DNA from: Spinacia oleracea
Taxonomy: Eukaryota; Streptophyta; Magnoliopsida; Caryophyllales; Amaranthaceae
DNA: 64,000 nt
Reading direction: 5' to 3'
Assembly (NCBI RefSeq): GCF_020520425.1
Contig: NC_079487.1
Coordinates: 42,477,219-42,541,218, forward strand
Position 1 is the stretch's first letter; each line of letters begins with the position of its first letter. Positions 5,470 to 64,000 of the stretch are shown piece after piece. The translations under genes and the position numbers were made by a program. The notes beneath the pieces are model-generated. The model was not told where the DNA came from. It saw only the letters and a list, made by a program, of their open reading frames with translations, and did no database searches.

Positions 5470-5765
5470 AAACGATGATATTGCCGGAAACGGAAATATG
5501 GATCGTATCGGAAATATAAATATTATCCAAGTCGTAGATGTTGCCGGAAACGGAAACATGGTACGTATCGGAAAATATTATCGGAAATGGAAATATTGCC
5601 GGAATCGGAAATATTGTCAGAATCGGAAATATTATCGGAATCGGAAAATAATTCCGGAAACGGAAATTTTAAATATTTGTTCGAAACGGAAATTAATTCC
5701 GGAATCGGAAATATTAAATATTGTTCGTATCGGAAATAAATTCCGGAATCGGGAATTTAATCGGA
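5470..5765 (+). repeat. CGGAAA word array in Copia LTR U3
   Basis: CGGAAA and its variants (CGGAAT, and TTCCGG where it is palindromic as TTCCGGAA) recur some two dozen times with 10-20 bp spacing, interleaved with TATT/AATATT. It is also present at 16525-16860 and inverted at 1260-1437. It lies upstream of the TATA box and may be a binding-site cluster (inference). Confidence 0.8.
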
Positions 5766-6187
5766 AGCGCATCGTACGAATTAGCATCGGACGAGCTTGC
5801 TAGACGAAGGCCCAGCACGAAGCCAGGCCCACGTCCAGCAAGCCAGCGCGCCACACGAACAGCCAAGGCCACGCCAGGCCCAACGCAAGGACAGGCCCAG
5901 CAGGTCGTGGCAGCGGGCGCAGCTGCGAGCAGTGCAGCTGCGCTCGTGTGGGCTTGTAGCTCACGTGGGCCGAGCGGCCGTGTTGGCTGTGCGCGGGCAT
6001 GGCCTGCACGCTTGCGGGTCATGCTCGTGTAGAGTTTGTGTTCACATACGAAACCTAAAGTGTATAGGATTTGTTTAATGATTAAATTCCTAATCCTAAA
6101 AGATAAATTAATTAAATAAGAGTTCTACTAGGATTCTAATTTAATTAATTCGTATCCTAGTAGGATTCGATTACTTATTCCATGGCC

Positions 6188-6195
6188 TATAAATA
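6188..6195 (+). promoter_or_regulatory. TATA box of Copia LTR
   Basis: TATAAATA occurs in the AT-rich part of the LTR downstream of the GC island; the homologous box in the second LTR is at 17231-17238. Confidence 0.65.
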
Positions 6196-6559
6196 TGAGT
6201 TAAAGGCTCATAATTTATATAGATAATTTCAAGTATTCACACAATAAAAAGCTAAGATTTTTAAGTAGAAAAATCAGCCATATTCCTGCCCTATTAGCTG
6301 AAAATATATAGTACCTTAAGGGCGATTCTAGTTGGTCAATCTTAAGGCGGATCCGGACGTGCTGTGGACTATCTATGGAGGGACTACACTTGGAGTCCTA
6401 AAGACTTATTCTTGTTCGGTGCGGGCGCAGCTAGGGAGGGCACGCTACAAAGTGTATGCATCTGAATTATGCTAAATGATTATGTGTAAATAATATGTTT
6501 CCTGACTTTATGGTTTTTCCGCATGATTTATGTTTATTCATATGTATCATAACCTAACA

Positions 6560-16211: not shown

Positions 16212-17591
16212 TGAAGGAAATAATGCCCTTGGTCCAAGTATGCATTCTATGTTAAGTCTAATAAATGCGGTTCAGTATTAATTAACAAGTTAATAATTCA
16301 GTGAGATCAAGTGAGCTGAATGCCTAGCTAGAGGTCGCTTCAGTTCAAGTGGAATTAATGATATTAATCCACAGCTTACTCTTGACTGAACCCGTAGGGT
16401 CACACAAATAGTACGTAAACGGATCAAGTACTTAATGGCATTAAATACTCCATCTATGGATATTCGGAATCGACGGATCTTGGTTTCAGTGGGAGTTGAG
16501 ATCGTCACAGGCAAGAAATGAATACTCCGGAAACGATGATATTGCCGGAAACGGAAATATGGATCGTATCGGAAATATAAATATTATCCAAGTCGTAGAT
16601 GTTGCCGGAAACGGAAACATGGTACGTATCGGAAAATATTATCGGAAATGGGAATATTGCCAGAATCGGAAATATTGCCGGAAACGGAAATATTGTCAGA
16701 ATCGGAAATATTATCGGAATCGGAAAATAATTCCGGAAACGGAAATATTAAATATTTGTTCGAAACGGAAATTGATTCCGGAATCGGAAATATTAAATAT
16801 TGTTCGTATCGGAAATGAATTCCGGAATCGGGAATTTAATCGGAAGCGTATCGTACGAATTAGCATCGGACGAGGCCCGCTAGACGAAGGCCCGGCACGA
16901 AGCCAGGCCGTCGCCCAGCGAGCCAACGCACACCAGCGCACGCCAAGCCTCGACCAGGCCCAGCGCAAGGCTAGGCCCAGCCAAGGCCTTGGGCGCGCGC
17001 GCAAGAGCACAGCAATGGGCCGAGCGCTGTTCGCCTAGCGTGGGCCGCAAGGCTTGCGCGGGTGTACGGTGCTCGTGCAATGCTTGTGCGGGAATCCTGA
17101 AGCAATCGGGATTCGAAGTGTGATTAAATCCTAAAACTATTAGATAATGATTATTTAATTAGAGTCCTCGTAGGGTTATAATTAAATAAATTAGTATCCT
17201 AATAGGATTCCAAAACCCTTTCCATAACTCTATAAATAGGTGCCTAGGGTCACATATTTTACAGATTATTCAAGTATTCAAAGTGAGTTTTTGAGAGAAA
17301 ATTCAGACACATTCCTTGACTATAAGTGCCGAAAATCTTTAGTACCTTAAGGGCGATTCTAGTTGGTCAATCTTAAAGCGGATCCGGACGTGCTGTGGAC
17401 TATTTACGGAGGGACGACACTTGGAGTCCTAAAGACTTGTTCTTGTTCGGTTCGGGCGCAGCTAGGGAAGGCACGCAACAAAGAGTATGCATCTAAACTA
17501 TGCTATATGATTATGTGTAAATAATATGTATTCCTGGCCAAATGGTTTTTCCGCATGATTTATGAATTGTCATATGTATCATAACCTAACA
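16212..17591 (+). mobile_element. Copia LTR (1380 bp)
   Basis: It starts TGAAGGAAATAATGCCCTTG and ends CATAACCTAACA, as does the LTR at 5151-6559. The first ~650 bp and the last ~350 bp match that copy closely, but the GC-rich island (about 16870-17085) is largely different. TATAAATA is at 17231-17238. It is followed by a primer-binding site, so it is a 5' LTR; the internal region is then lost within ~200 bp. Confidence 0.85.
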
Positions 17592-31126: not shown

Positions 31127-32018
<892 letters not shown>

Positions 32019-48684: not shown

Positions 48685-51177
48685 TGTAATACCTCGTATT
48701 TTTATAATATTTATAAGTATATTTTATTATATTTATAAAGCATTTTACGATTAATTCGCATTTAAATAATATTTAAATGTATTTTATTTAAATGTATTTT
48801 AATTAATTAGAATATTTATTATTTTAATTAATTACGAAACGAATTTAATTCTTGAGTCGGAAAATTAAATGGGTTGCAAATGATTTTTAAAGGCTTCAGG
48901 TTTTAAATGAAAAGTCCAATTCGTTTTATTAAACGAGCCCAATTAAAAGAATTTAATTCCAAACTCTTGGCTAGCCCAATCATTTAATTGCTAAGCCCAA
49001 TCCTATTTTCCTAAGCCTAGCCCATTAAAAATAAGGAGCCTATAAATAGGACTCCTCATCATTAAATGAGCCCCTAAAATTCATAAACCCTATTTTGCTT
49101 TGCTTTCCCATCACTCTTCCTCTCTCCTCTCCATCTCTTTGCTCGGCCTCACGCCCAATCGGCCTCACGCCCACTCGTGCTGCACCGCACGGCCTTGTGC
49201 CCTCGTGCTGCACGCCCTCGGCCTCGTGCCCTCGTGCTGCACGCCCTCGGCCTCGTGCCCTCGTGCTGCACGCCCTCGGCCTCGTGCCCTCGTGCTGCAC
49301 GCCCTCGGCCTCGTGCCCTCGTGCTTGTCTCTCGCCCACACTCCCTCTCGTCTCTCTTCTCTTGCCCGCAGCCCGCAGCGAGCACTCGTTCCCTGCGCTG
49401 CTGCCGTCCCTTGTTGTTGCTCGTGTGCTCGCGCACACCTTGCTCGTCCCCTTGCTTGTGTGCTCAGCGCACACCCTTGCTCGCCCCTCTCACTCGCACG
49501 CTGCGCCAGCCCGCGCGCGCTGCCCTGCCCCTTTGTTCGTCGCCTTGCCGTGCGCGCACCCACACACGGACGTGTGTGTGTGTGTGTGTTGTTCGTGTTC
49601 GTAATTCAATTCTTGATTGTTCGTGATTGTTCCGTGCTACAGGCTGGATTGGAGGTTATTTCTAGTTGAGTGCTCGTTATTGCAAAGTGGCCCCTACGCT
49701 TAGGTATTCAAGGTACGTACAAGTCTAGGGCGACCACACCTTTTGTCAATGACATTACATGATTGTTGATGATCTGAATTATATTATGTGGATTCATATA
49801 TGCTTTGGTGAACGATCATGTGGATTAATGTTATTGGAATTATTGAATTGTTGGTTGAACAAGCATGTTGAGATTATTATGAGTATGGATTTCATTGTCA
49901 ATCATGTTGTTCAATATTTATGCATGTATGGTTTGTTTCACATGCAAGGGATGATCATTTAATTGTATGCTATGGTACGGGTTGTCTAGCATACTTTGAG
50001 CCAATTATTCGTACCTCGTTGTACTGTTTATTTTACCACATGTGAAGGGTTAGCTCATGTAAGCCACCGCACATGTAGGGTTCAGTTGGGAGTATTATGT
50101 ATGAAATGAATTAGGATTTGTCGTGCAAGGGCACAACCCCTCATGTTAATGTGCATGATGTGGAGTCTCACTTTGGTGAGGAGGAACATGGTAGTAATTT
50201 CACAAGAGTCTTGCTTGGTTGATCACAAGTCTTAAAGCATTAAAATGAGATTGTTTTGGTTGTCGTTTATTAATTGTATGTGTGTATATTGTTGAGTGTT
50301 GAGTTCGCCTTCAAATAAAATATTAATAAACGTAAAGTGCAACCGGAACAAGCTTCAAAACTCTTGGAACGTATATACCTTGAGTATGAACAATGGGGGG
50401 GAGTCTTGCCGGAAAGCTCGTACTCCTACTAATGATACAAGACGTTGTTTCATTTATAATATGCGCAGGAATTCCGTCGGTATGGCCCGACACTCGGTAT
50501 GGTCCGATTTTATTATTTATTATTTGGTGTATGGTTGGCTCCCATCACCTTTTCCTTTATGGAACTTTCTTTTGGCCCGTTCAAAGCTTATTCTAATTGA
50601 ATTGTGAGTCAAGAGTCGAGTCAAGAGTCGAGTCTTGTATTCATGATTGATTGTTTATTATTATATGGATTTTGCATGTTGATTAGTACTTAGTGAGTGA
50701 TGCATGTTTTAGTTTCACTCACTCTATGCTTGTAAGTACTCAGCTTTTGCTGACTACGTGCTTTGTGTGTTTTGGTCATGGCCTTTACCTTAATGACCCT
50801 ATGATGATCTATCATTTGCACTTGCATTGATGGGGAGTAGAATAATATAGCAGGTTGGTAGATCGGAATCATGTGGCTTGGGATGATCGAGAGAGTTGCA
50901 TGTTTTCGTATACTTTGAAACTATTTAATAATACTTTAATTATGTTTGAAATGTTTGAACTATTTATGTTTTGGTTTTGGGCCATTATGGTTCCGAATTG
51001 TAGGAGGCCTCGATATTTCATTTATTATGTTTTTAAAAGTTAGTTGACATTAAATTCCGCTGCGTAATTCTGGTAATAGCCTTAACCGTTATCACGGTGG
51101 CGGTAATACTTTAGTAATTCCTTTATTTTAAGTTGGAAAATGATTTTATAAAAGCAAGGAATTATTAGGGTGTTACA
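48685..51177 (+). mobile_element. Solo LTR (2493 bp), TGTAATACCTCG family
   Basis: It starts TGTAATACCTCG and ends GGGTGTTACA, flanked by AGATC on both sides (48680-48684 and 51178-51182), a perfect 5-bp duplication. TATAAATA is at 49041-49048, followed by a GC-rich island at 49140-49560 that would be transcribed. No gag or pol inside. It is related to the CACTA-split LTR at 23098. Confidence 0.85.
49203..49325 (+). repeat. 29-bp minisatellite in LTR GC island
   Basis: CTCGTGCTGCACGCCCTCGG plus CCTCGTGCC recurs four times nearly perfectly, with a partial fifth unit. Because 29 is not a multiple of 3, each reading frame cycles through the same repeated peptide. Confidence 0.85.
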
Positions 51178-51182
51178 AGATC

Positions 51183-51310
51183 AGATTTGCTCATTTGAAA
51201 TTTTTGCTCATTTAAATATTTTTTTACTCATTTGAATTTTTTTTTGCTCATTTGAGTTTTTTTTGCTCATTTAAACTTCGTTTTGCTCATCTTGCCGAAA
51301 TGAGCAAATT
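51183..51310 (+). repeat. TTTGCTCATTTGAA tandem words
   Basis: TTTGCTCATTTRAA with T-runs recurs about six times at ~22-bp spacing, ending with an inverted ATGAGCAAA. The LTR at 48685 inserted at its edge. Confidence 0.7.
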
Positions 51311-51922
51311 TTACAAAATCTTCTTTACTACTGAAACCAACTTTTGTGCCCAAAGTACGGAACGACTTTCCATCGGCCCACAGGTGAACGAGTTAGCTCA
51401 AGACCTATAAAATTACAAAGTACAAACCCAAAACACAGTACAAGACTCACCATGCCAGCGCGAGGCCGCTGAGACAAGTGCCAATCCGGCCGAAACACCA
51501 GGTCGGAAGGGATCCAACCAGTACTAGGGAAAGCGGGCGCATCTCAGGGAACCATACCCCCGCCTGGCGCTTTTATTGTAACCGCTTCATCATCCGAAGA
51601 ATCTTCCTCGGCAGCTCGAACCACAGATGATTCAGCGAGTTTCCTCCGGGTGTGACGAGGCATACTAAATCAAGTAGCATACAAAGTGTCAAAATTCTAA
51701 ACTGGGGGCTATCCTACGCTGGCCTATGCAAAGTATTCGAAACAACAATCCCCAGTGGATCTCTAGTTCAAGATACAAATTCCTACACCAACGCCTAGGG
51801 TACCCACGCCGAAGCAGGTATACGAGTTCTACATCAACGCCTAGGCTATCCATGCCGAAGCAGATACAAGTTCAAAACAATTCAAAAGTACAAGTTCCAA
51901 CAGTTCAAGTTCAAGTGGCTAT
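51311..51922 (-). pseudogene. Fragment resembling Tat leader and gag start
   Basis: On the minus strand ATG at 51664-51666 opens MPRHTRRKLAESSVVRAAEE and stops after ~37 codons, with no known domain. Between it and the LTR lie duplicated 40-bp words (TACACCAACGCCTAGGGTAC / TACATCAACGCCTAGGCTAT at 51780-51860) and ATCCCCAGTGGATC at 51748, which resembles the primer-binding site ATCCCCAGTGGAGTCACCA at 63567. It may be the 5' internal end of another Tat copy sharing the LTR at 51923. Confidence 0.35.
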
Positions 51923-52781
51923 TGTGAGGGGGTCGAAAAAGCACGAGGCTAATGCGTGACCTCGTCCCTCGTGGGTGTGACGATTCTTTTTATTCAATCA
52001 AGTGTAATTGGATTCCATGTGAGTATACACCCAATTGACTAGTAATATAGGAGTCGCCATTCAGTTTTTAATGACAATGAGAAAAACTGACAAAACCCGG
52101 TTAACGTGACATAAAGGGAGTGAAATTATGTTTAACCACGACGGCCGTAGGTTCCCTTGTGATCCCTGGTGTGGGGATCTATCAATATACACCCACAAGG
52201 TAGAGATTGAGGGTTCGGGGGACTGTAACTACCGAGAGGAGTACTTCGCTCGTCGATAACTCCAGAGGCAGGATATCCTTACTAGCTCAGCATAAATCAT
52301 TGAAGGAACATGCGTTAACTATTAAACTAATCTGAGTTGATTTTAGCAATATGCAACATATAATACTAATTCGATCGTGATTATCTGATTTAAATAGCAT
52401 TAAGGGACCTAGCATGATAATCCGATTTCCCAAAAATATTATATTTGTTAGGCGTGATAGAACAATCAGATTAGGTTAGTTTAACAGTTCATAAAAAGGG
52501 CGAGGAAAGCAGTTAAATCATCGAAAAGGGACACATTACGACGCACCCTTGAGAGGTGCGTCACGGTTCTCAGAAAACTAACCACTTTGACTTTGCTATT
52601 TCTCCTTTTTATTTAACGAATCTCAATTATGGGACAGGATACGTTCTGTTCGATTTATGGATCGATTGCGACAGAACGCGTGAACAATTTCGCAGCGAGA
52701 GGCTTAAGCTAAGGGTTGGAGTCAATACTCAGAATATAGTTATGTGTTGTGTGTGTTCTTTTCACGTCGAATTTAGGGGCC

Positions 52782-52789
52782 TATTTATA
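52782..52789 (-). promoter_or_regulatory. TATA box of Tat LTR
   Basis: TATAAATA on the minus strand within CCCTATAAATAGGCCCC. The double-dyad motif copy A lies 75-135 bp upstream. Confidence 0.65.
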
Positions 52790-52863
52790 GGGAAGAGTTC
52801 GTGGAAAGATAGAATTGCAGAGTTCTAATCCACAAAGAATTAGGAAAAAACACGTACCCAGGT

Positions 52864-52924
52864 ATTTTCAGCGCCCAGGCCTGGGCGCCGAAGATTTCGG
52901 CGCCCAGAGCCAGGCGTTGAAAAT
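52864..52924. repeat. GCGCCCAG double-dyad motif, copy A (LTR U3)
   Basis: Outer arms ATTTTCA / TGAAAAT enclose GCGCCCAGGCCTGGGCGC (a perfect 18-bp palindrome) and a second dyad GGCGCCCAG-AGC-CAGGCG, joined by GAAGATTTC. Three other copies lie in the same retrotransposon. It could fold as two hairpins closed by a common stem. Confidence 0.85.
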
Positions 52925-53384
52925 AGGGTCTGGGCTGTTTTCTTTAGTCAGATTCGGATTCCTGAAATCCGTAGAGTTTGAGATTAATTCGAGTCTTTTA
53001 GCGCGTACCAATTTTGTGACGGAATGCGTCTGGGCCCGTTACGAACTCTAGGCTCGTTAGGATTTCAATTAATACGTAACTCTTATTTCCGAATCATATA
53101 AGGAATAGGATTCTCGCAGTTTTCTATCTCATTTAGGATTTATGTTGGAATGCAACACCTAATTCTGACAGGTTTCTATCTTTTATGATTTGCCACTTTT
53201 AGAAGCTACCTTTTACGGCAGTTACTGTTTTTAGCAGGTTTTCATAAATAGCAGGTTTCGGGTGAAATGAAAAGGGGAATTGAGATTCATTTATTTTATA
53301 GGAGATGCGTTGTCAAGTGGAGATTTATGTTTTCATCATCGAACCTTTCCCTTGCGGGAATGGGGACAAAAGTAGGTGTCTACA

Positions 53385-53401
53385 GTTAGCCCCCACTTTG
53401 A
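53385..53401 (-). promoter_or_regulatory. Polypurine tract of Tat element
   Basis: On the minus strand AAAGTGGGGGCTAAC lies directly upstream of the LTR start TGTAGACACC. Confidence 0.75.
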
Positions 53402-53779
53402 CTGAGTCTTGGAGTAAGACGATGGTCAAAGTATTAGACGGAGTGCGTCACACAAGCCATGGTGTATTGTGACCTGTTTTGCGAGGGTCTCACGAGCCCC
53501 CGAGTGATAACATTTGACTTAAGGGTCATCACTTGAAATGATGACATATCCCTCACGTGTCATTGGGACTTGTCAACTGATAGTATAGAAACTTCCTCAC
53601 TTTTTCATTGGAAGGATCTAAAGGTGCGTAGAAACTCCCTTACTTTGTCATTGGGAGTAGCTACAGAGTTTTTCGAAATCAAAGCTGTAAAGTGTAATTG
53701 GGCCTGGCCAAGCCCAATCACGAGGTAAAAACGTTTTGTAAAGATTCTCATTTTCAGGGCTAGCTAAACGAGAAAACCC

Positions 53780-53900
53780 CCTTGTTTTTATAGGACGTAA
53801 AACGAAGGAAAATCCAGCACCCTTGTTTTTATAGGACGTAAAACGAAGGAAAATCCAGCACCCTTGTTTTTATAGGACAGAAAACGAAGGAAAATCCAGC
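53780..53900. repeat. 41-bp minisatellite (3 copies) in Tat 3' UTR
   Basis: CACCCTTGTTTTTATAGGAC followed by GTAAAACGAAGGAAAATCCAG recurs three times with one or two changes. Confidence 0.85.
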
Positions 53901-53921
53901 AAAAGTTATCACCGCAGCGAC

Positions 53922-54330
53922 TAAGGACCTGTGCGGTTTAATGGCGCAGACCCCGCCGGCTAAAGATGGCGAGCCTGTCCGCTAAGGGTGGACACGCCGT
54001 CCGATAGAAGTGGACGAATCTGTTTTTGAAATTTGAAAATAAGGACCTACGCGATTTGTGACGTAGACCCCGCCGGCTAAAGATGGCGAACCTTGTCCGC
54101 TAAGGGTGGACACCCCGTCCGACAGAAGTGGACGAATCTAATTTGAAATTTGTTTTGCTTTTTTGAAAATAAGGACCTACGCGGTTAGTGACGTAGACCC
54201 CGCCGGCTGAAGATGGCGAGCCTATTTTAAATTTGAAGACTTTATTTCTTTCGAAAACTGAGGACCTGCGCGGCTACTGACGCAGACCCCGCCGGCTGAG
54301 GGTGGGCGAGCCCATTTTGAATTTCTTATT
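53922..54330. repeat. ~90-125-bp tandem repeat (4 copies) in Tat 3' UTR
   Basis: Each unit opens AAGGACCTRYGCGG, continues GACCCCGCCGGCTAAAGATG and, in the first two units, GTCCGCTAAGGGTGGACA. Later units lose the second half. Ogre/Tat 3' UTRs are known to breed such repeats. Confidence 0.85.
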
Positions 54331-54551
54331 TTGCCTATGTAGAAGGGCTTTTGTGATTACAACCTGTTGGTGGGTCGTAATATTTCCTGATTAGATGTGT
54401 CCTATAAGTGGGTCCACACTGTGTATATTTTTGTTTAACAATTTTTTTTTTTTTTTTCAAAATACCTTTTTTTTTTGGGGAAGAAATATCAAGATAACGG
54501 ATATCTTACACAAAATAGGGGAGTACGCGTGCCCGACTCGCTGTCTGGGAA

Positions 54552-54616
54552 GCATTTTCAGCGCCCAACTGTGGGCGCGAGAATTTCTAACGCCCAGAGT
54601 TGGGCGTTGAAAATGC
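54552..54616. repeat. GCGCCCAG double-dyad motif, copy B (antisense promoter)
   Basis: Outer arms GCATTTTCA / TGAAAATGC enclose GCGCCCAACTGTGGGCGC and AACGCCCAGAGTTGGGCGTT, joined by GAGAATTTC. It ends 17 bp before the TATA-like box of the antisense gene. Confidence 0.85.
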
Positions 54617-54632
54617 GAAGGGGGGGCTGGTC

Positions 54633-54640
54633 TTTAAATA
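54633..54640 (+). promoter_or_regulatory. TATA-like box of antisense gene
   Basis: TTTAAATA is followed by a pyrimidine-rich leader (54650-54773), then GTAAGT at 54774, which can splice to the TGATCAG acceptor just before ATG 55274. Confidence 0.55.
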
Positions 54641-55273
54641 CGCGGACCGTCTCCTTCCTTTCCCATTTCCACCATTTTCGCTCAAACTCTTCACTTCTTT
54701 CTACTGATTTTTGCTCGTTTCCTTCACTTTTCTTCACGAATTCTACTCCAAATCACTTCCTAATCTTCCCAACGTAAGTAATTTTCAGTAATTTTGAGCT
54801 TTTTTGTCAATTTCAGTATTTTTGTCAAGTATTTTTGTGCATGAAATTGATTTGGGGTTTTTTGATTTTGTGCCCCTTTCCTTCAATTAGATAGTTGGAA
54901 ATGTTCCACATAACATGTTAATTAGTTTGTGCATGTTAATTTTTGCAAGTATGTTGATTTTTGTTGAATTTGGGCATTTTCATGCTAGCCCCCAAGTATA
55001 CCTACGACCCTAGTTTTTTCTTATAATGTAGGTGTTCTTGGTATATTGCTTGCGTTCCTCATAATTCATGGGTGACAAATTATGGAAGAATTTTTATTTT
55101 GCTGGAGTTAATTTTTACTTAGGGAATTTTTCTAAGTATGAACTTAGTATCATGTTTTTAGGGAACAAAAATTGTATGACTCCATTTCATGAGTGAAATG
55201 CACTCTTTTTTAAGGATCGGTGTGAGTGCCGATTTTGTCAAAGGTATAATGCCTTGTTGTATTGTTGATCAGC

Positions 55274-57548
55274 ATGTCTGACGAGTCGTTACCCCATCCT
55301 GGTGGCCACGAGGAGCGTGGCATGACGCGTCAGTCTACTGGCGCGGGTCCCCTATGGGTGGGCCCTGAGCTCTACGACGGTCGTGATCTGCACTACGACC
55401 TAGAGCACCACGTGACTTCCCGCCTTCACGCGAGGAGAGAGACTACGGTTCGCGGCTATGGCGCAGCGACGAGTGAGACCGTTTTTAGCTACCTAAGCTC
55501 GGATGCCCAGGCCTTGGTGAGGGCGAGCTCACTGTTTCCGGTGGTTGAGACCTTCTGGGAGATACTGCGGCTTAACATTTCCCTGTCCTTTCTGCGGTCG
55601 TTTATGAGGTGGTGGTGGGATACCACCAACACCTTCCATTTTCCTTGGGGCGAGATGACGATCACTCCTAAGGACTACACGGCTTTGACGGGGTTGACCT
55701 TTACAGGGAACCCCGTTCGTCTGAGGTCGGATGGCCCATCGCCGACTGTTGCTGAGGGTACCAGGCTCCTGGGCTCGTGGATGGGTAGTAGATTACCTTC
55801 GTACCAGCCCCGTGGGATACCTTTCGCTGACCTGATGTGGGCTTTGGAGCATGGGGTAGAGGAGTCGCCTTCGAGACAGGCTCGGCTGTTCTACCTCCAT
55901 TTTATTACTTCCACTTTTCTATCGGGTCCGACTGACACCTTTGACCCGAGGTGGATAGGCATGGTGGAGGACGTGTCTACACTGGGTGACTATCACTGGG
56001 GCGATTTGGGCTATGCGACGCTTGTCGGCCAGATGAGTTTGTCGGTGCGCGACTCGGACCCGAGTAGACGTCACTTTGTAATTACATTAGCGGGAGTGCC
56101 GCGTTTGATCGAGGTATGTGCCTAGACTTTCTTTTATTTTCTCGCTTTTACCGGGCCTCTTTTTTTTAATGTTTTATTGTCCTTTTCTTTTTGCAGCTGT
56201 GGGCCTTTGAGCACTTACCTTGGCTGGCTCCCCGAAAGGGGTAGAGGCCTTTGGAGTTCCCTGCCGGTCGCCGTTGGGGTTGGAAGAAGAAGCTGACAGT
56301 GCGTCCACCGCCCGATACCGTGTGGGATCTTATCCGGGACGGGAACCCTGAGCATGTACAAAATCTTATCCTCTATCTCGTATTTCGTCATTCTTTTTTA
56401 TTTTCTATGTGCGAGATCTGACTGCGTTTGTACAAAAACAGGTGGTTTGGACCCCATGGCTCTCTTTTAGGGGTACCCATGCTTCGGTCGGGGATAATTA
56501 TGCCCTGAGCCAGATGCGGGTCTTGTTCGTTGGCCACCGGGACCCTGTCTGGTACCTGGGAGAGCGGGTACGTATGCAGACGGTCGGGGCTTTTTCGGTG
56601 CCCAGGCCTCCGCCTGCGACCATGCTGTCTACTCGCTCGATAGGAGAGTCGTGGAGGGTCCACTCGAGGACTGGCGTGCCGGCGACGGAGTTGGTGATAG
56701 AGGGAGCTAGCTATTACCAGTTTATCCAGGATTCTCTTCGTCTCCCGGAGCCTGGCGCTGTAAGTTGCCTCCTCTCTTCGTATTGATTTTAGTGTTTTCA
56801 TGCTCGTGCCCATGTGTTTATGCCTACTGTGTTTTGTGCAGGAGTGTCCAGACCCTTCGTTGGGGGGATGGGTGCTTCCCGATGCTCGGATCTCGTATAC
56901 CGGAGAGAGTGGATCCGAGATTGTGGAGACTTTCCCGGAAGACCGGGTTTTCCATGCTCCGCTCCCTGAGGGAGTACAGGCGGTATGCACCTTTTATTTG
57001 TGTACTCTTCTTATATTTTTTCTTTCTTTTTTACTAACATTCCTGTTTCAGGTTCCGGCCCGTACGACCAATGCGATGGTGGGGGTGATCAACCGGTTGA
57101 AGTCCGCGTTGGTTCGAGCTCGGTCTGCACTTTCTTGCAGGAGCCCCCACTCTACTCGGGTAATGTGCCCTCTTTTTTCTTTTGATCTGTACCTTTTGTT
57201 TGGCTTTCGGTTATTCACTCTCTTTTTTGTCCTTTTTTGTAGACGGCGGCTGGACGTGCCGGGGCCGACGACGCGAGTCCCTCGGGCGGGGGACACGGTC
57301 GTGAGAGAGAGAGGGCGCGACACTCGCCCCTACGGCATCGCCGTTCCGACGCGGGGGTGAGTTCTTCCGGGGAGAGGTCCGAGCCGGAGCGTAGGCGACG
57401 TTCCGTGTCGGTGGCCCGAGAGCCTAGCCCCGAGTTGCAGTCACAACCTCATTTTTGGGGTGACTCTGGCTGGGGGCCCTCATACCACGGGGAGTGGAGT
57501 GGATGGACCGGCGAGGCTTGGAGACATGGAGCCGATGACGAGTCTTAG
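55274..57548 (+). pseudogene. Plant mobile domain (PMD) gene antisense to Tat pol, one nonsense codon
   Basis: Six exons join in phase 0: 55274-56113, 56197-56355, 56442-56759, 56842-56982, 57052-57159 and 57243-57548 (624 codons with stop). FPWGEMTITPKDYTALTGL in exon 1 and LWAFEHLPWLAP in exon 2 are typical of the plant mobile domain (aminotransferase-like, PMD), shared by MAIL1/MAIN-type host proteins and transposable elements. The tail of exon 6 is Arg/Ser/Gly-rich and low complexity. A TAG at 56242-56244 (codon 296) breaks exon 2; all introns keep clean GT/AG ends. Upstream are a TATA-like box and a probable 5'-UTR intron (54774-55273). PMD genes antisense to pol are described for Tat elements; their role is unknown. 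GC content is higher than the surroundings. Confidence 0.85.
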
Positions 57549-58230
57549 GCTTACCTCCTGTTTTGTACATATTCATTCTTGTATTCCGCGTGTATATATA
57601 TATTTTTTTTGCGATTTTTGGTGCAAGAATGTTTTGAGCCTTCCGTGGGCTTTGTTTTAACATATTATAGCAATATTAGCTTTCTAAACCAACGACGAAT
57701 TTTGAAAAGGAAAAGACTTTCGTAAAAATAATGAGTTCATATAAGAGTGCACACATATTTTTAGACTAACCGACTACTTGGGGTATTACATATGCATGTT
57801 CACTATTTTTTTGTTTTTTGCCGATTCGTGCCATACTCCTTTGTTGGGCTTGTTCCTGGAAATTCTTGTGGCTTTGTTTTTTTTTTTTTCATTCTATTTG
57901 GTCTTGCCCGTGCATGGGTTAGGGTAGAGTGCCCTTTGCAATATCTTTTCTTCTTGATGCGTTGCATGACTTTATTATTTTTTTAATTTTTATTGGACCG
58001 AATCCTTGAGAAGGATTGCCTACGTATCTTGTCAGAATTAGGTCGCGCGTAGTTCTAGCTTTTGAGAAAATTTTTGAAAGGGTGTTCATTACACGTCTGC
58101 TTCCCCCCCCCCCCCCCCCCCCCCAAGTGTTCGTGGCTCTTTTGAGGGTTAGAAAAAGGAGTACGAACACTTGCAGAAGCGGGAGGGTAGGTGGCAAGAG
58201 AGAATGACGCCCGACCAAGGGCGAAGGAAA
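57549..58230. other. Region between antisense gene and pol
   Basis: 3' UTR of the antisense gene and noncoding spacer. It contains a short (TA)n tract at 57592 and a run of 22 C at 58103-58124. No gene. Confidence 0.5.
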
Positions 58231-58290
58231 TATCGGCGCCCAGGCCTGGGCGTGAAAAATAACAGCGCCCAGTCCTGGGCGTTAAAGTTT
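58231..58290. repeat. GCGCCCAG double-dyad motif, copy C (after pol stop)
   Basis: GGCGCCCAGGCCTGGGCG and CAGCGCCCAGTCCTGGGCG, joined by TGAAAAATAA; the outer arm is weaker than in the other copies. It lies ~45 bp beyond the pol stop codon. Confidence 0.8.
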
Positions 58291-58333
58291 TGTCCTTCAC
58301 TTTTTCTACCTTATCGAGTTTTATGCCGTTTGC

Positions 58334-61300
58334 TTAGAGTAATGCGCATAATGTTTTCTTATAAGTCTTAATGTGTTTTATTAGATGCCTTAACTCTGGA
58401 CTGAATTTTATTAAATATGGTACTTTTTTAGTTTGGTCTAAGTTCGTGAGGTTAGCGAATTCCGCTCCATCTATGTCAGCTAGTTGGACTGCTCCGCCAG
58501 GTAGGATGGTCTTTACAAAATACGGTCCTGTCCAGTTAGGCCAGAATTTTCCTCGAGGGTCTGCAGTAGGTGCGCGGACTTCTTTTAATACAAAATCGCC
58601 TTCTTTGATATTTTGAGGTTTGACTCTTTTGTTGAATTGCCTTGCGATGCGCTTTTGATACACTTGCACGTGATGTAAAGCTCTCAACCTCCGTTCGTCT
58701 AAAAGGACGAGCTCGTCGTACCTAGCTTGAACCCAATCAGCTTCGGGTAGCTTGCTTTCTAGGACGATCCGGAGGGAGGGAATCTCCAACTCGACCGGTT
58801 GAACTGCTTCCATTCCGTATACCAAGGAGTAGGGTGTTACTCCAATGGAGGTGCGGATTGAGGTTCGATAGCCCCATAATGCGAAGTATAATTTGTTGGG
58901 CCAATCCTTATAATTTTCGGCCATTTTTTCGATTATGACTTTAATATTTTTGTTGGCCGCCTCTACCGCGTCGTTCATCTGCGGCCTGTAGGGAGAGGAT
59001 TTATGGTGTTTGACATGATATTTTTCGAGCAGGTCTTGGACTTCGGCCCTGAAGTGGGAACCTTGGTCACTTATGATTTCATGTGGAGCCCCGTGTCGAC
59101 AGAATATGTTCTTTTCTAGGAATCGAGCGACATGTTTGGCCGTTAATTTTGCATAGGAGACTGCCCCTACCCATTTAGTGAAGTAATCAATTGCGACTAA
59201 AACGTACTCGTGTCCCCATACGCCTGTTGGTGTTACCTTGCCGATTATATCTATACCCCAGGTGGAAAAGGGCCATGGAGAAGTGAAGGTGTATAGTTCT
59301 GAGGGAGGCAAATGGTTAAGGTTACTGAAGATTTGGCATTTTGGGCAAGTTTTTACAAAGTGATGACAATCAGTTTTCATAGTGGTCCAATAGTACCCTG
59401 AGCGGGATATTTTTCGGGATAGCATTTTTCCGTTCATATGGGGTCCGCACACGCCGTTATGGTATTCCTCCATTAGTCTTTGGGCTTGGTTTTGATGGAC
59501 ACAAAGTAACTTGATTTTATTCGGCGTGTATTTGAACAGTTCTCCCAGAATTATGCTATATTGTGAAGCGAGGAGGCGTAGGGCCTTTTGTGCTCGCGGG
59601 GAAGTGTTTGGGGGGAATTCCCCACTTGTTTTGTAACGAAGGATGTCCGTGTACCATGGTTCTTCTTCGGTGTTTTCAGGTTCGGAGTCTATGGAACAAC
59701 AATAAGCCGGCTCTTTCCTTCGCTCGACCCGAAGGGTCATTCCGTCCCATTCATTCGGGATGTTGAGCATTGAAGCTAGCTTTGCTAGTGCATCCGCGAA
59801 TTGGTTGTCGTCTCTTGGCAAGTACGTATACTCGATTTTTTCAAATTGCTCGACTATTTGGTCTAAGTGAGCTTGATATTTTGAGAGACTAGTGCTTCGG
59901 ACCTTCCATCTTTTGGATATATGGTTGATTATTAGGGAAGAATCCCCGAAGACTTGTAGATGTTTGACTCCGAGGCTAACTGCGGCCTCTAGCCCAACTA
60001 TGCAGGCCTCGTATTCGGCGGCATTGTTCGTGGCCTCGAAGTCAAGTTTGACGAAAATTGGTATATGAGCTCCTTCGGGACTGACTAGGAGAACTCCGAC
60101 GCCGCATCCTTTTTGGTTGGACGCGCCATCGAAGTATAGTGTCCAATAGTCGTCTCGTATCATCAGAAGTTCCTCCTCGGGGAGGAGGTAAGCTTCCGTG
60201 GTTTCCTCATTCGTGGCATGCTCGGCCAGGAATTCGGCTACCACTCTTCCTTTGATTGTTTTTTCCGGCATGAATTTTAGGTCGAATTCTGAGAGCATGA
60301 CTAGCCACCTGGACAGGCGACCATTTAGGGCGGGCTTTTCGAACATGTATTTTAAGGGATCTAGTTGTGACACTATATGAACAGTGTGGGCCAATAGGTA
60401 ATGTCTGAGTTTTTTGGATGCCCAGACAAGGGCGAGACAGGTTTTCTCACGTTCTGTGTATCTCGTCTCGTACTGTATGAACTTCTTGCTCAAGTAGTAA
60501 ATGGCTCGCTCGGATCCATGTACACACTGTGAGAGCATAGCTCCTGCTGCAGTATCCGTGACGGTTAGGTATAGGCGTAAAGGGATTCCAGGCAAAGGCG
60601 GGGAGAGGACGGGTGGTTTGCTTAGGTATTCTTTGATTTTATCGAAGGCAGTTTGGCATTGTTCATCCCATTCGATCTTTTCTTCATTTCTTAATTTTTT
60701 GAATATTGGCTCACAAGTCATAGTAAGCTTGGAAATGAACCTACTAATGTATTGCAGCTTTCCTAGGAAGCCCCTTATCTGTTTTTCAGTTTTTGGTGGG
60801 GGCATTTCGGTAATGGCTTTGATCTTAGATGGGTCAATCTCGATTCCTCGCGTACTAACAACATATCCTAGCAATTTTCCCGAGGTTACCCCGAACACAC
60901 ATTTTTGTGGATTTAGTCTCATGTTATGTTTCAAGATTCGGGTGAAGAACTTTTTAAGTGTCGGGAGGTGACCGTGCCGGTCTTTAGATTTGACGATCAT
61001 GTCGTCCACATAGACCTCGATTTCTTTATGTATCGTGTCATGGAGTAACGTGGTGGCTGTTCTTTGATAGGTGGCCCCCGCGTTTTTCAAACCAAAAGGC
61101 ATTACAGTGTAACAATATGTTCCCCAAGGGGTTATGAAAGTTGTTTTTTCCATGTCTTCTTCTGCCATGAGTATTTGGTTATATCCGGCGTACCCGTCCA
61201 TAAAGGAGAGGAGCGCGTGCTCTGCGGTGTTGTCTACTAGTATGTCAATGTGAGGTAGAGGGAAGTCATCTTTGGGACTGGCTTTGTTGAGGTCTCGAAA

Positions 61301-62326
61301 GTCTACGCACATTCGCACTCGTCCATCTTTTTTAGCTACGGGGACAATATTGGCCACCCATTCTGGGTAGTTGGAGACTTTTATAAAGCCGGCGTCTAAT
61401 TGTTTAGTGACTTCTTCTTTTATTTTCAAGGCTATCTCTGGTTTGAGCCGCCGTAGCTTTTGTTTTACTGGCGTCATTTTGGGATCTAGCGGAATTTTAT
61501 GCTCAGCGATTTCTCGATCTATTCCTGGCATGTCTTTGTAGGACCAAGCAAAGACACCCTCGAATTCCCGCAAAGTGGAGATTAGATCGGCCTTTTCAGT
61601 GGGAGTTAAGGTGAGGCCAATTTTAATAATTTTAGGATTTTCTTCCGTTCCAATATTTACCGATTCTGTGTCCTCAATTATAGAAGTTTTGAGTTCTTGT
61701 TCACTTACATCTTTTATTAGTTCGGTATATTCCTCTTCTGGCTCTTTTTCGTGCTCATTAGTGGCGAGACATTCTGCATTATTACTCGGATTTTTAAGCG
61801 GCACATACTCAAAAGTTTTGTTTATCTTATTAAAGTCATGAAGCATTACATCAAAAAGATCTCCCGGGGTGGAGATTTCCAAGTCTAAACTATTTTTGGG
61901 AGGGGTTACAATTTTGCTAGGTTCGGACACGGAGTCAGACTCGGATTCAGACTCTAATTCTTCGTACATCGGACCCTCTCCCGCAGATATCTTGAACTTC
62001 ATCCCACGAGCGTTAGTCCATTTGAAAGTCTTGCGCCACCCTCGTTGGATTTGGTCATCTTTTGAGGGTGATGGAGCGATCAATTTAGTAGGATCGAACA
62101 CTTCATCTTGGAGAGCTAATGCCATAATTTCTGTTTCTTTCTTCGCTCTTTTCTTTTCTAACCCAAACAATAGCCCGAAAGCGTGTGAGTTGGGGAGCGT
62201 TTTTGGCATAGCATGGTTCTTTGGGGCGAGTGGCCTTTGAGAACGTAAAGGGTCGTGTCCCAGAGCATGCATCTCTTGGGTTTGTGCGACCTCTAGGTAT
62301 AGATGTTCGGGATATGCTTCTTCCAT
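58334..62326 (-). CDS. Tat-lineage Gypsy pol polyprotein, 1330 codons
   Basis: One uninterrupted minus-strand frame. An acidic linker (residues 120-240) precedes reverse transcriptase (about 290-490; MCVDFRDLNKASPKDDFPLP, YVDD at 439-442), Ty3 RNase H (about 585-690), then a second, archaeal-type RNase H (about 728-850; YFDGASNQKG, E771/E773, D795, D845). Integrase follows: zinc finger H956/H963 with C994/C997, core D1026, D1087, E1122, and a C-terminal GPYFVKTILPGGAVQLADID segment. It copies the element's RNA into DNA and inserts it. RT with two RNase H domains is typical of the Tat lineage. The frame starts after the usual gag-protease position, and no protease DTG motif is seen, so this copy needs those functions from elsewhere. 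No frameshift suggests fairly recent insertion. Confidence 0.93.
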   Translation of the reverse strand: MEEAYPEHLYLEVAQTQEMHALGHDPLRSQRPLAPKNHAMPKTLPNSHAFGLLFGLEKKRAKKETEIMALALQDEVFDPTKLIAPSPSKDDQIQRGWRKTFKWTNARGMKFKISAGEGPMYEELESESESDSVSEPSKIVTPPKNSLDLEISTPGDLFDVMLHDFNKINKTFEYVPLKNPSNNAECLATNEHEKEPEEEYTELIKDVSEQELKTSIIEDTESVNIGTEENPKIIKIGLTLTPTEKADLISTLREFEGVFAWSYKDMPGIDREIAEHKIPLDPKMTPVKQKLRRLKPEIALKIKEEVTKQLDAGFIKVSNYPEWVANIVPVAKKDGRVRMCVDFRDLNKASPKDDFPLPHIDILVDNTAEHALLSFMDGYAGYNQILMAEEDMEKTTFITPWGTYCYTVMPFGLKNAGATYQRTATTLLHDTIHKEIEVYVDDMIVKSKDRHGHLPTLKKFFTRILKHNMRLNPQKCVFGVTSGKLLGYVVSTRGIEIDPSKIKAITEMPPPKTEKQIRGFLGKLQYISRFISKLTMTCEPIFKKLRNEEKIEWDEQCQTAFDKIKEYLSKPPVLSPPLPGIPLRLYLTVTDTAAGAMLSQCVHGSERAIYYLSKKFIQYETRYTEREKTCLALVWASKKLRHYLLAHTVHIVSQLDPLKYMFEKPALNGRLSRWLVMLSEFDLKFMPEKTIKGRVVAEFLAEHATNEETTEAYLLPEEELLMIRDDYWTLYFDGASNQKGCGVGVLLVSPEGAHIPIFVKLDFEATNNAAEYEACIVGLEAAVSLGVKHLQVFGDSSLIINHISKRWKVRSTSLSKYQAHLDQIVEQFEKIEYTYLPRDDNQFADALAKLASMLNIPNEWDGMTLRVERRKEPAYCCSIDSEPENTEEEPWYTDILRYKTSGEFPPNTSPRAQKALRLLASQYSIILGELFKYTPNKIKLLCVHQNQAQRLMEEYHNGVCGPHMNGKMLSRKISRSGYYWTTMKTDCHHFVKTCPKCQIFSNLNHLPPSELYTFTSPWPFSTWGIDIIGKVTPTGVWGHEYVLVAIDYFTKWVGAVSYAKLTAKHVARFLEKNIFCRHGAPHEIISDQGSHFRAEVQDLLEKYHVKHHKSSPYRPQMNDAVEAANKNIKVIIEKMAENYKDWPNKLYFALWGYRTSIRTSIGVTPYSLVYGMEAVQPVELEIPSLRIVLESKLPEADWVQARYDELVLLDERRLRALHHVQVYQKRIARQFNKRVKPQNIKEGDFVLKEVRAPTADPRGKFWPNWTGPYFVKTILPGGAVQLADIDGAEFANLTNLDQTKKVPYLIKFSPELRHLIKHIKTYKKTLCALL

Positions 62327-63566
62327 CGCATTCCTTGATGGCTATCACGGGCAAGTACTTAGGGGCCCTGCATTATTGTTGTGGAGTAGGAGACACATTA
62401 GTTTGTTTCGTGAGTCGGTTTTTTTAGACATTCTATGACTACCCTTAAGTCGGACTAGTATATTTGGACTGCTATGTGTGCACTTTGAACTCTTTATGTT
62501 TTCGAAAATCTCTGCCCGTGTGACATTCATGATTATTTGCATGGTCGACTTTTAGTGTCGAGCATTGCCGTCGTAGGAGGCCTAACAACGACGCAAAGAG
62601 TTATTAATTTTTTCGCGAGTTGCTTTTGAAATCGAGTGCTTTTCTTACGCCCTTGTAGCAATTCTTTTTATGAACATTTTTTTGCGCTACATATTTTCCT
62701 TTCGCGCGGGCACCGAGGCTGCTGCGCCTGACCAGAAGGCCAAGCAGCAACTTCAGCGCCCAGCGAGGGGCGTGAGAATTTCTGGCGCCCAGCCAGGGGC
62801 GTTGAAAATGCGTCCCTGGCTGGTTCTCGTTTTCTGTCTTCTGTTTATGCGACTTCGATTTGCGTGCTTTCCTGATAACATCCTTTACGCGTGGCAGCGT
62901 TTGTGGGATTCGTTACAGGCCATCCCGAGCGTCGCTTATTTTTGTGGCGATCATTCGGGTTTGCGGAACACGTGTTTCGGTATAACTCTTTGGCAAATTA
63001 GTCTATGAATGTTTGGGCAATTTTTAAGGTCGTTGGTTTTCTAGGATAGTTTGTCACACACAATCACATATTTCGCTACACATAACTACATTACAAACAT
63101 GGATTTGAAAATTAAATATGCCACGTAGTTTGTGATAGGCTTCTATGGGTAGTTTATTTGCGCCTGGCTTGGTACCGCTTCTATCGTAGATCCAACACAT
63201 GCCCCGGTCGAGGTAGTGTCTTCAACAGACGAATTTCGCTCAAGAGGCCAACCCGCAAGTGCAAGCCAAGGGGGCATGCAGGCGAGAGGGACCTAATGGG
63301 CGAGCGATTGGGTTCGGGATAGGTGTACTACCTGCACAAGTACCGAGTGGGAAACATGCGCGGCGTATGCACACCCCTATTGGCGAAAAAATGTATCCTT
63401 AGTCCCAACTCCCGAGGGAGCCGAGATTCGTTATGCGGTTCTGCCCGTTCACATTAATATGCTTATTTTCAGGTCGCCCCAACTTGATGGGGAAATAAAC
63501 GCGGGGTAGGATCGTTTCACCCTTCGGCTATTTTGATTACCTACAAGCACGAGTATTTCCTTCACT
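62327..63566 (-). other. Tat leader, gag/protease missing
   Basis: Only short frames occur between the primer-binding site and pol. A frame just upstream of the pol start (62354-62103, minus, PVIAIKECDGRSISRTSI) overlaps it and may be a frameshifted remnant of the linker. No capsid, zinc knuckle or protease motif was recognised. Confidence 0.6.
62751..62810. repeat. GCGCCCAG double-dyad motif, copy D (leader)
   Basis: CTTCAGCGCCCAGCGAGGGG, then GAGAATTTCTGGCGCCCAGC and GGGGCGTTGAAAATG. The joiner GAGAATTTC is identical to copy B. Confidence 0.82.
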
Positions 63567-63585
63567 ATCCCCAGTGGAGTCACCA
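63567..63585 (-). promoter_or_regulatory. Primer-binding site of Tat element
   Basis: On the minus strand TGGTGACTCCACTGGGGAT begins one base after the LTR end. The TGG...ACTGGGGAT pattern fits Tat/Ogre-type sites; the matching tRNA was not verified. Confidence 0.75.
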
Positions 63586-63586
63586 T

Positions 63587-64000
63587 TGTGAGGGGGTCGA
63601 AAAAGCACGAGGCTAATGCGTGACCTCGTCCCTCGTGGGTGTGACGATTCTTTTTATTCAATCAAGTGTAATTGGATTCCCTGTGAGTATACACCCAATT
63701 GACTAGTAATATAGGAGTCACCATTCAGTTTTTAAAGACAATGAGAAAAACTGACAAAACCCGGTTATCGTGACATAAAGGGAGTGCAATTATGTTTAAC
63801 CACGGCGGCCGTAGGTTCCCTTGTGATCCCTGGTGTGGGGATCTCTCAATATACACCCGCAAGGTAGAGATTGAGGGTTCGGGGGATTGTAACTACCGAG
63901 AGGAGTACTTCGCTCGTCGATAACTCCAGAGGCAGGATATCCTTACTAGCTCAGCATAAATAATTGAAGGGACATGCGTTAACTATTAAACTAATCTGAG
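63587..64000 (-). mobile_element. 5' LTR of Tat element, cut by window end
   Basis: The same sequence as 51923-52336, with 11 substitutions and no indels by eye. The start of this LTR lies beyond the window, so the target duplication cannot be tested. Confidence 0.88.

Follow-up and report, generated by a model that had tools for sequence, protein, structure and literature searches.

A stretch of 64,000 nucleotides of the Spinacia oleracea genome (contig NC_079487.1, positions 42,477,219–42,541,218; the whole of this stretch is referred to below as the window) contains a long terminal repeat (LTR) retrotransposon carrying four copies of a unit composed of two adjacent dyads, and each of these copies is probably a double-stranded DNA operator bound by two adjacent protein dimers. 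This reading is based on the repetition of the unit at fixed sites, the fixed period of the dyads, the fixed distance between the U3 unit and the TATA box, the conservation of the half-site cores alone, and the independent mutation of the two arms at the pairs tested. In the mechanism proposed, a dimeric protein would recognize each dyad, which consists of two half-sites of approximately TTTCRRCGCCCAG facing each other, and two dimers would be placed side by side with a fixed period of 29 bp. Copies of the operator would stand at the sense promoter (U3), at the antisense promoter, in the leader, and where the convergent genes meet, and one protein would thereby act on the whole element as well as on its non-autonomous partners. 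The effect, which we infer in the same way as the binding of the protein, would be activation or anti-silencing.

The Four Units of the Window

An earlier note on this DNA had described a double-dyad motif at four noncoding junctions of one retrotransposon, and all four copies were found where it placed them. They were assessed by alignment, by a shuffle test on the dyad pattern, and with a weight matrix built from the four. The copies are ungapped over 67 nt, and each contains two dyads, the centers of which are always 29 bp apart: unit A (52861–52927) is located in the U3 region of the 3′ LTR, unit B (54551–54617) in the antisense-gene promoter, unit C (58226–58292) in the space separating the 3′ ends of the pol and antisense genes, and unit D (62746–62812) in the leader, between the 5′ LTR and the pol frame. 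Units A, C, and D show 70, 64, and 81% identity to unit B, respectively. The 20-nt dyad pattern, with at most 3 mismatches, has 3 matches in the window, vs. a mean of 0.00 in shuffled sequences, and the four copies themselves score 74.8–81.2 bits with the weight matrix. Next among the plus-strand sites is one at 58197 (38.0 bits), which overlaps unit C and corresponds to a decayed third dyad (58208–58223). This dyad stands at a distance of 29 bp from C's first dyad and is also present in locus L024; outside the element, the highest score among the top 12 sites listed per strand was 4.1 bits. No further unit was found in the window by repeat comparison or with the weight matrix. A chance origin of the four copies is excluded.

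Several details of the earlier description had to be amended. The stems, which were said to be kept, are shorter in both dyads of D and in the second dyad of A, where the uninterrupted core measures only 5 and 4 bp (by eye), and the TTTTCA and TTGAAAA borders are lacking in C, which begins with TATCG and ends with TTAAAG. The same strand sense was attributed to all the copies: the outer G/T asymmetry is indeed alike in the four window copies, but it is reversed at one site (post-gag) in the gag-only family described below, so that this nearly strand-symmetric unit has no strand sense that holds generally. The distances to the TATA-like boxes, given as about 75 bp for A and 17 bp for B, are 82 and 26 bp, respectively, from the last dyad arm; the boxes in question are TATAAATA in U3 (52782–52789, minus strand) and TTTAAATA in the case of the antisense gene (54633–54640, plus strand).

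Two other sequence features were observed in the window: a run of 22 C at 58103–58124, near unit C, and a GC-rich tandem repeat at 49190–49334, which also has a 29-bp period and appears by eye to be unrelated in sequence to the dyads.

Distribution of the Units in the Genome and in Element Families

The genome (894 Mb, 242 contigs) was searched using reversed patterns as controls. The exact CGCCCAGNNCTGGGCG dyad (CGCCCAG-NN-CTGGGCG) occurs 28,489 times (control 0), GCGCCCAG-N0-30-CTGGGCGC has 13,726 exact matches (control 0), and CTGGGCG-N4-34-CGCCCAG has 16,770 (control 7). At 77 distinct genome places listed, the gap between paired dyads is 13 nt, i.e., a 29-bp period, in 68 cases, 14 nt in 3, and 27–28 nt in 6. 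The dyads are concentrated around the elements: with 12,094 exact matches to the first 20 bases of the LTR present in the genome, such a start lies no more than 1 kb away from 40 of the first 100 dyads listed, vs. a random mean of 4.1; at 12 kb, the number rises to 95, vs. a random mean of 33.5 (maximum 50 in 2000 draws). Among the five more distant ones, three belong to units of loci L009 and L013 and one to a gag-only post-gag site. Ten stretches of 4 kb, located at round-number positions of five contigs, were also examined, and three of them contain units; another of these stretches, L026, contains no units and carries a different gypsy pol at 65–2080 (34% identity over 702 amino acids). 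The motif had no match in a viral contig collection, and nine matches in a prokaryote collection were taken to be due to chance. Ogre/Tat is described, in the part of the source available, as the most abundant Gypsy lineage in spinach (PMC6337768).

The sample in which the units were studied consists of the window, the ten stretches mentioned above, and 20 loci, each chosen around a dyad on the list. The 77 units called comprise 69 double, 6 triple, 1 quadruple, and 1 single unit, which means that 76 have at least two dyads. In the 20 loci and the window, 67 of 77 neighboring dyads are exactly 29 bp apart, spurious calls included. Two of the units called are spurious by eye, and the other 75 consist of one LTR unit at the edge of a locus and 74 units falling into nine clusters, which were defined by their flanks with the unit masked: LTR (22), post-gag (13), leader (12), F3-a (6), F2-mid (6), F3-b (5), F2 antisense promoter (5), B (3), and C (2).

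The elements belong to three families, F1, F2, and F3, which have one LTR and the leader site in common. F1, the family of the window element, has pol and an antisense gene encoding a plant mobile domain (PMD) protein. F2 is a gag-only family with an antisense gene; in the internal region of L012, the halves of the window pol match one N-terminal stretch only. The antisense frames of this family have sub-threshold matches to PMD and also match DUF7745, for which one of four copies exceeds the cut-off; no DUF1985 match was listed for them. F3 is noncoding, with no frame of 120 amino acids in the two loci checked. One F2 unit lies upstream of the antisense frame, a second separates its two frames (probably as part of an intron), and the others are located between the 3′ ends, in the leader, and in the LTR, which amounts to the layout of the window element plus one extra unit.

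Retention and Conservation of the Half-Sites

When homologous places were identified by their flanks alone, duplicate rows of one place not being counted, the unit was present at 74 of 75; the sole exception is the L024 LTR, which has lost a 29-bp step. Retention was 22/23 in the LTR, 3/3 at B, 2/2 at C, and 12/12 in the leader (D). At eight of the nine sites, the divergence of the flanks is five or more times that of the half-site cores: the core and flank values are 0.024 and 0.166 in the LTR, 0.042 and 0.226 at the post-gag site, 0.017 and 0.132 in the leader, 0.025 and 0.191 at F3-a, 0.017 and 0.109 at F2-mid, 0.020 and 0.143 at the F2 antisense promoter, 0 and 0.071 at B, and 0 and 0.089 at C. 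In the leader cluster (n = 12), which contains no copy selected on account of an exact dyad, the columns between the cores give 0.159, and when seven sites are pooled these columns behave like flanks. Over the whole unit, divergence is 0.103 vs. 0.161 for the flanks in the LTR and 0.115 vs. 0.228 at the post-gag site.

In the seven pooled sites, CpG loss is 0.011 in the core (54 columns) and 0.093 in the flanks (264 columns), and the loss of other C/G is 0.015 (78 columns) and 0.098 (867 columns), respectively. Since the non-CpG columns of the core are retained to the same degree as its CpG columns, a lack of methylation alone would be a poor cause of this pattern, and selection on the half-sites would be the simplest one.

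In U3, the distance separating the last dyad arm and the TATA box is 81–84 bp in 21 of the 22 LTR alignments (the remaining one has no recognizable core), and at the F2 antisense promoter it is 86–88 bp in all three copies measured from the cluster of five. Outside the dyads, the F2 antisense promoter and U3 have no common match longer than 20 bp. The promoter-proximal positions in two element families and the conservation confined to the half-site cores support the earlier suggestion that the unit may be a control element shared by the sense and antisense promoters; the interpretation given in the earlier note is partly supported.

Several points weigh against the operator reading. Unit B stands 26 bp from its TATA box and not at about 85 bp, and the leader and post-gag units do not adjoin any known promoter. 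The 5′ LTR of the window element, which would drive transcription, is one dyad short: in the window (63585–64000, minus strand) only part of this LTR is present, and in the rest, which continues to about 65019 (L035), 29 bp are missing from the unit, leaving a single dyad. At F3-b (n = 5), the advantage of the core is almost nil (0.075 vs. 0.095), and that of the whole unit is reversed (0.154 vs. 0.087); over the whole unit, the leader (0.119 vs. 0.132) and the F2 antisense promoter (0.132 vs. 0.145) differ little from their flanks. The loci were chosen because they have an exact dyad, and 35 of the 77 units contain a listed place. When the chosen units are left out, the direction of the core advantage is kept in the LTR (n = 5, 0.040 vs. 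0.192), F3-a (n = 4, 0.033 vs. 0.172), post-gag (n = 2, 0.050 vs. 0.118), and B clusters, on the strength of only two to five copies each, and the F2-mid copies become too few to compare. The copies are related, and the column tests are hence non-independent. Lastly, since F3 has no antisense gene, a protein encoded by the element would have to act there in trans.

The Window Element and Its Antisense Gene

The 3′ LTR extends approximately from 51921 to 53384 on the minus strand, its 5′ end being located at 53384 (TGTAGACACC). The two LTRs show 97.4% identity over 416 bp and 98.2% in further pieces of 665 and 490 bp. The pol frame (58334–62326, minus strand), which was searched in two pieces, contains reverse transcriptase, RNase H, and integrase. 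On the plus strand, the first coding exon of the antisense gene (55274–56125) encodes a plant mobile domain (PF10536, E 2e-11) and shows a sub-threshold similarity to DUF1985 (20.8 bits, and 21 bits in another copy, the cut-off being 35.1). It is followed by probable further exons and introns (56126–57548), the splice sites of which were placed by eye, and the two frames present there have no Pfam match at E 0.01. Judging by eye, the gene as a whole (55274–57548) appears to be intron-bearing, and a sense RNA would retain these introns at transposition. In the genome, the 138 best-scoring of 3,204 first-look candidates for the PMD exon are 95–100% identical to it, and most of them have no stop. 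The structure predicted for this exon from 7 sequences had a mean pLDDT of 38.1 and was not used.

Between the 3′ LTR and unit B, there are three copies of an approximately 41-nt repeat (53779–53905, by eye) and three copies of a 77-nt repeat (54017–54312), the second and third of which are 87 and 64% identical to the first; these repeats resemble those reported for the regions between pol and the 3′ LTR in Retand. Elsewhere in the window, two arrays of 8–12-nt repeats (31218–31421 and 31743–31948) contain arms, each about 98 nt long, with 98% complementarity to one another, and a 654-nt inverted repeat (762–1415 and 5634–6287) is 99% complementary, 162 nt of it recurring at 16713–16874.

Candidate Binders and Alternative Explanations

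The antisense PMD protein of the element itself may quite possibly be the binder, although by our own estimate this falls short of being probable. It is a candidate because both coding families keep related antisense genes adjoining a unit (the F1 PMD protein and the F2 antisense protein are 23% identical over 82 amino acids, E 3.6e-6), and also because VANC, which bears DUF1985, binds noncoding repeats of its own elements and the window protein has the sub-threshold DUF1985 similarity mentioned above. DUF1985 has 149 matches elsewhere in the genome, and such a widespread domain means that a sub-threshold match proves nothing by itself. A host transcription factor could also be the binder, which we estimate to be possible with only slightly less confidence. 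The fact that the sites are kept in the noncoding family would be compatible with a host factor as well as with the action of an element protein in trans. As regards the identity of the half-site, E2F- and TCP-like sites were considered. Three bases separate TTT from CGC in the half-site, so that it does not appear to be the E2F site.

Should a host factor bind the dyads, the element would simply carry ready-made promoter sites, and its antisense gene would be incidental. The promoter-proximal sites and the presence of units in the noncoding family, which lacks long frames in the two loci checked, are in keeping with this explanation. On the other hand, an exact LTR start is found at most 12 kb away from 95 of the 100 dyads listed, and four of the other five are in element sequence, in an examination that covered the elements rather than host gene promoters, and the leader and gene-junction units are unlike simple promoter sites. 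On balance, this explanation does not seem very likely.

It is improbable that the units are a neutral repeat homogenized by conversion or template switching among the sites. This process would account for the likeness of the copies within an element and for the variable number of units; however, homogenization should spread the entire unit, whereas each site has its own signature between the cores and only the cores are fixed.

The same unit occurring at many unrelated sites might also suggest a tiny mobile palindrome inserting into elements, for which the double-hairpin elements of fungal mitochondria are a model. The F3-b units with their flanks (89–105 bp in all; L005 5744–5848, L016 2769–2865, and L017 6416–6504) are 85–88% like the post-gag unit of L045, which shows that units can be copied; this likeness suggests that new units may arise by local duplication. 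No empty site was found among the 75 flank-defined places, however, the gains and losses proceed in steps of 29 or 43–44 bp, as in slippage or unequal exchange, and no unit was found outside elements in the sample, so that insertion of this kind is very improbable.

The near-palindromic units could fold, and the arms were examined for covariation in 107 distinct dyads out of 138, with stem pairs numbered from 0; pairs 5 and 6 of the genome search pattern correspond to stem pairs 4 and 5 in this numbering. At pair 5 of the genome counts (C to T, G to A), the left arm alone has changed in 823 cases, the right arm in 787, and both in 24, vs. 22.7 expected; at pair 6 (A-T to G-C), these figures are 198, 218, and 2, vs. 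1.5 expected. In the 107 dyads, no double Watson–Crick change was found at stem pairs 0–5, of which pairs 0–3 are nearly invariant and hence not very informative. At pairs −1, 6, and 7, there are 15, 5, and 8 double changes, and the total pairing is 47, 56, and 35, vs. 53.7, 54.3, and 35.9 under independence. The combinations G.T and A.C are equally frequent (29 each) at the outer R/Y pair (−1). The two arms mutate independently at the pairs tested, which argues against an RNA structure and for a double-stranded operator; taken alone, this independence would fit two protein half-sites but also neutral decay, and the case for selection rests on the conservation test instead. The RNA structure put forward in the earlier note, which had itself named decay without compensatory change as evidence against it, is not supported, such decay being seen genome-wide at two stem pairs. 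An RNA hairpin was rejected as the structured element, and with compensatory changes at the level expected, pairing about at or below that expected under independence, and no Rfam match at the gathering threshold within 50000–64000, a hairpin or cruciform is extremely improbable as the selected feature.

Comparison with Known Systems

The view that no described motif matches the unit holds within the Rfam and literature searches made: the motif letters and words yielded no relevant description among the literature matches listed. The closest parallel is with VANC of VANDAL21, which, according to the available parts of the sources, carries DUF1985 and mediates sequence-specific anti-silencing (PMC5735166, PMC10398659). 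In both cases, as far as these parts go, a short element-specific motif is repeated in noncoding regions, including introns and the regions upstream of genes, and repeat units are gained and lost; the VANDAL motif is recognized by a protein encoded by the element (PMC5735166). That motif has 9 bases and is described there as arrayed in one orientation, whereas the present one is palindromic, with mostly two dyads per unit.

VANDALs are Mutator-like DNA transposons, whereas the window element has LTRs, reverse transcriptase, and integrase; its antisense protein is a PMD protein with sub-threshold DUF1985 similarity and a candidate binder of the dyads. A short noncoding motif repeated within one element group is present here, and neither a dense single-orientation array nor a VANDAL carrier was found. 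In view of the element class, the motif array, and the domain score below the cut-off, this is not a VANC system by membership, but it may work like one. A retrotransposon counterpart of VANC, in which the antisense PMD protein would bind the dyads throughout the element and keep both promoters open against silencing, and in which the gag-only and noncoding families would live off this protein through the same kept sites, is an unlikely but by no means negligible possibility.

The layout of the element is that of Retand/Tat, with a gypsy-type pol (RVT_1, RNase H, rve), a long region between pol and the LTR, and an antisense open reading frame. The region between pol and the 3′ LTR (58334 to 53384) measures 4.9 kb and contains the PMD gene; the range given for Retand/Tat in the available part of PMC11963269 is 2.9–6.6 kb. 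According to the same part, TRP28 occurs in 97% of the Retand/Tat clusters, whereas the antisense gene studied here encodes a PMD, and TRP28 (PF04195) was not found at E 0.01 in the three antisense frames given; the string "palindrom" appears there in a reference only. The Retand/Tat antisense gene has been proposed to be a DNA-binding regulator (PMC11963269, PMC7264820, available parts). Likewise, gene23 of Grande is an antisense gene with its own promoter and a nuclear product, in the same parts of these sources (PMC7264820, PMC11963269), where no shared operator is mentioned. Among host proteins, the PMD proteins MAIN and MAIL1 are required for genes having the common promoter motif "DOWN" (PMC7156037, available part); these are host genes.

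According to the available parts of the sources (PMC7264820, PMC11963269), no function is known for the antisense genes that plant Tat/Retand elements carry, and the one described here adjoins a precise and highly repeated candidate target. The existence of a VANC counterpart, if true, would explain the purpose of this antisense gene and the abundance of the group. If the link between the antisense gene and the dyads holds, element-coded regulation via repeated noncoding motifs would extend beyond DNA transposons to LTR retrotransposons, and the retention of cis-sites could account for the noncoding families.

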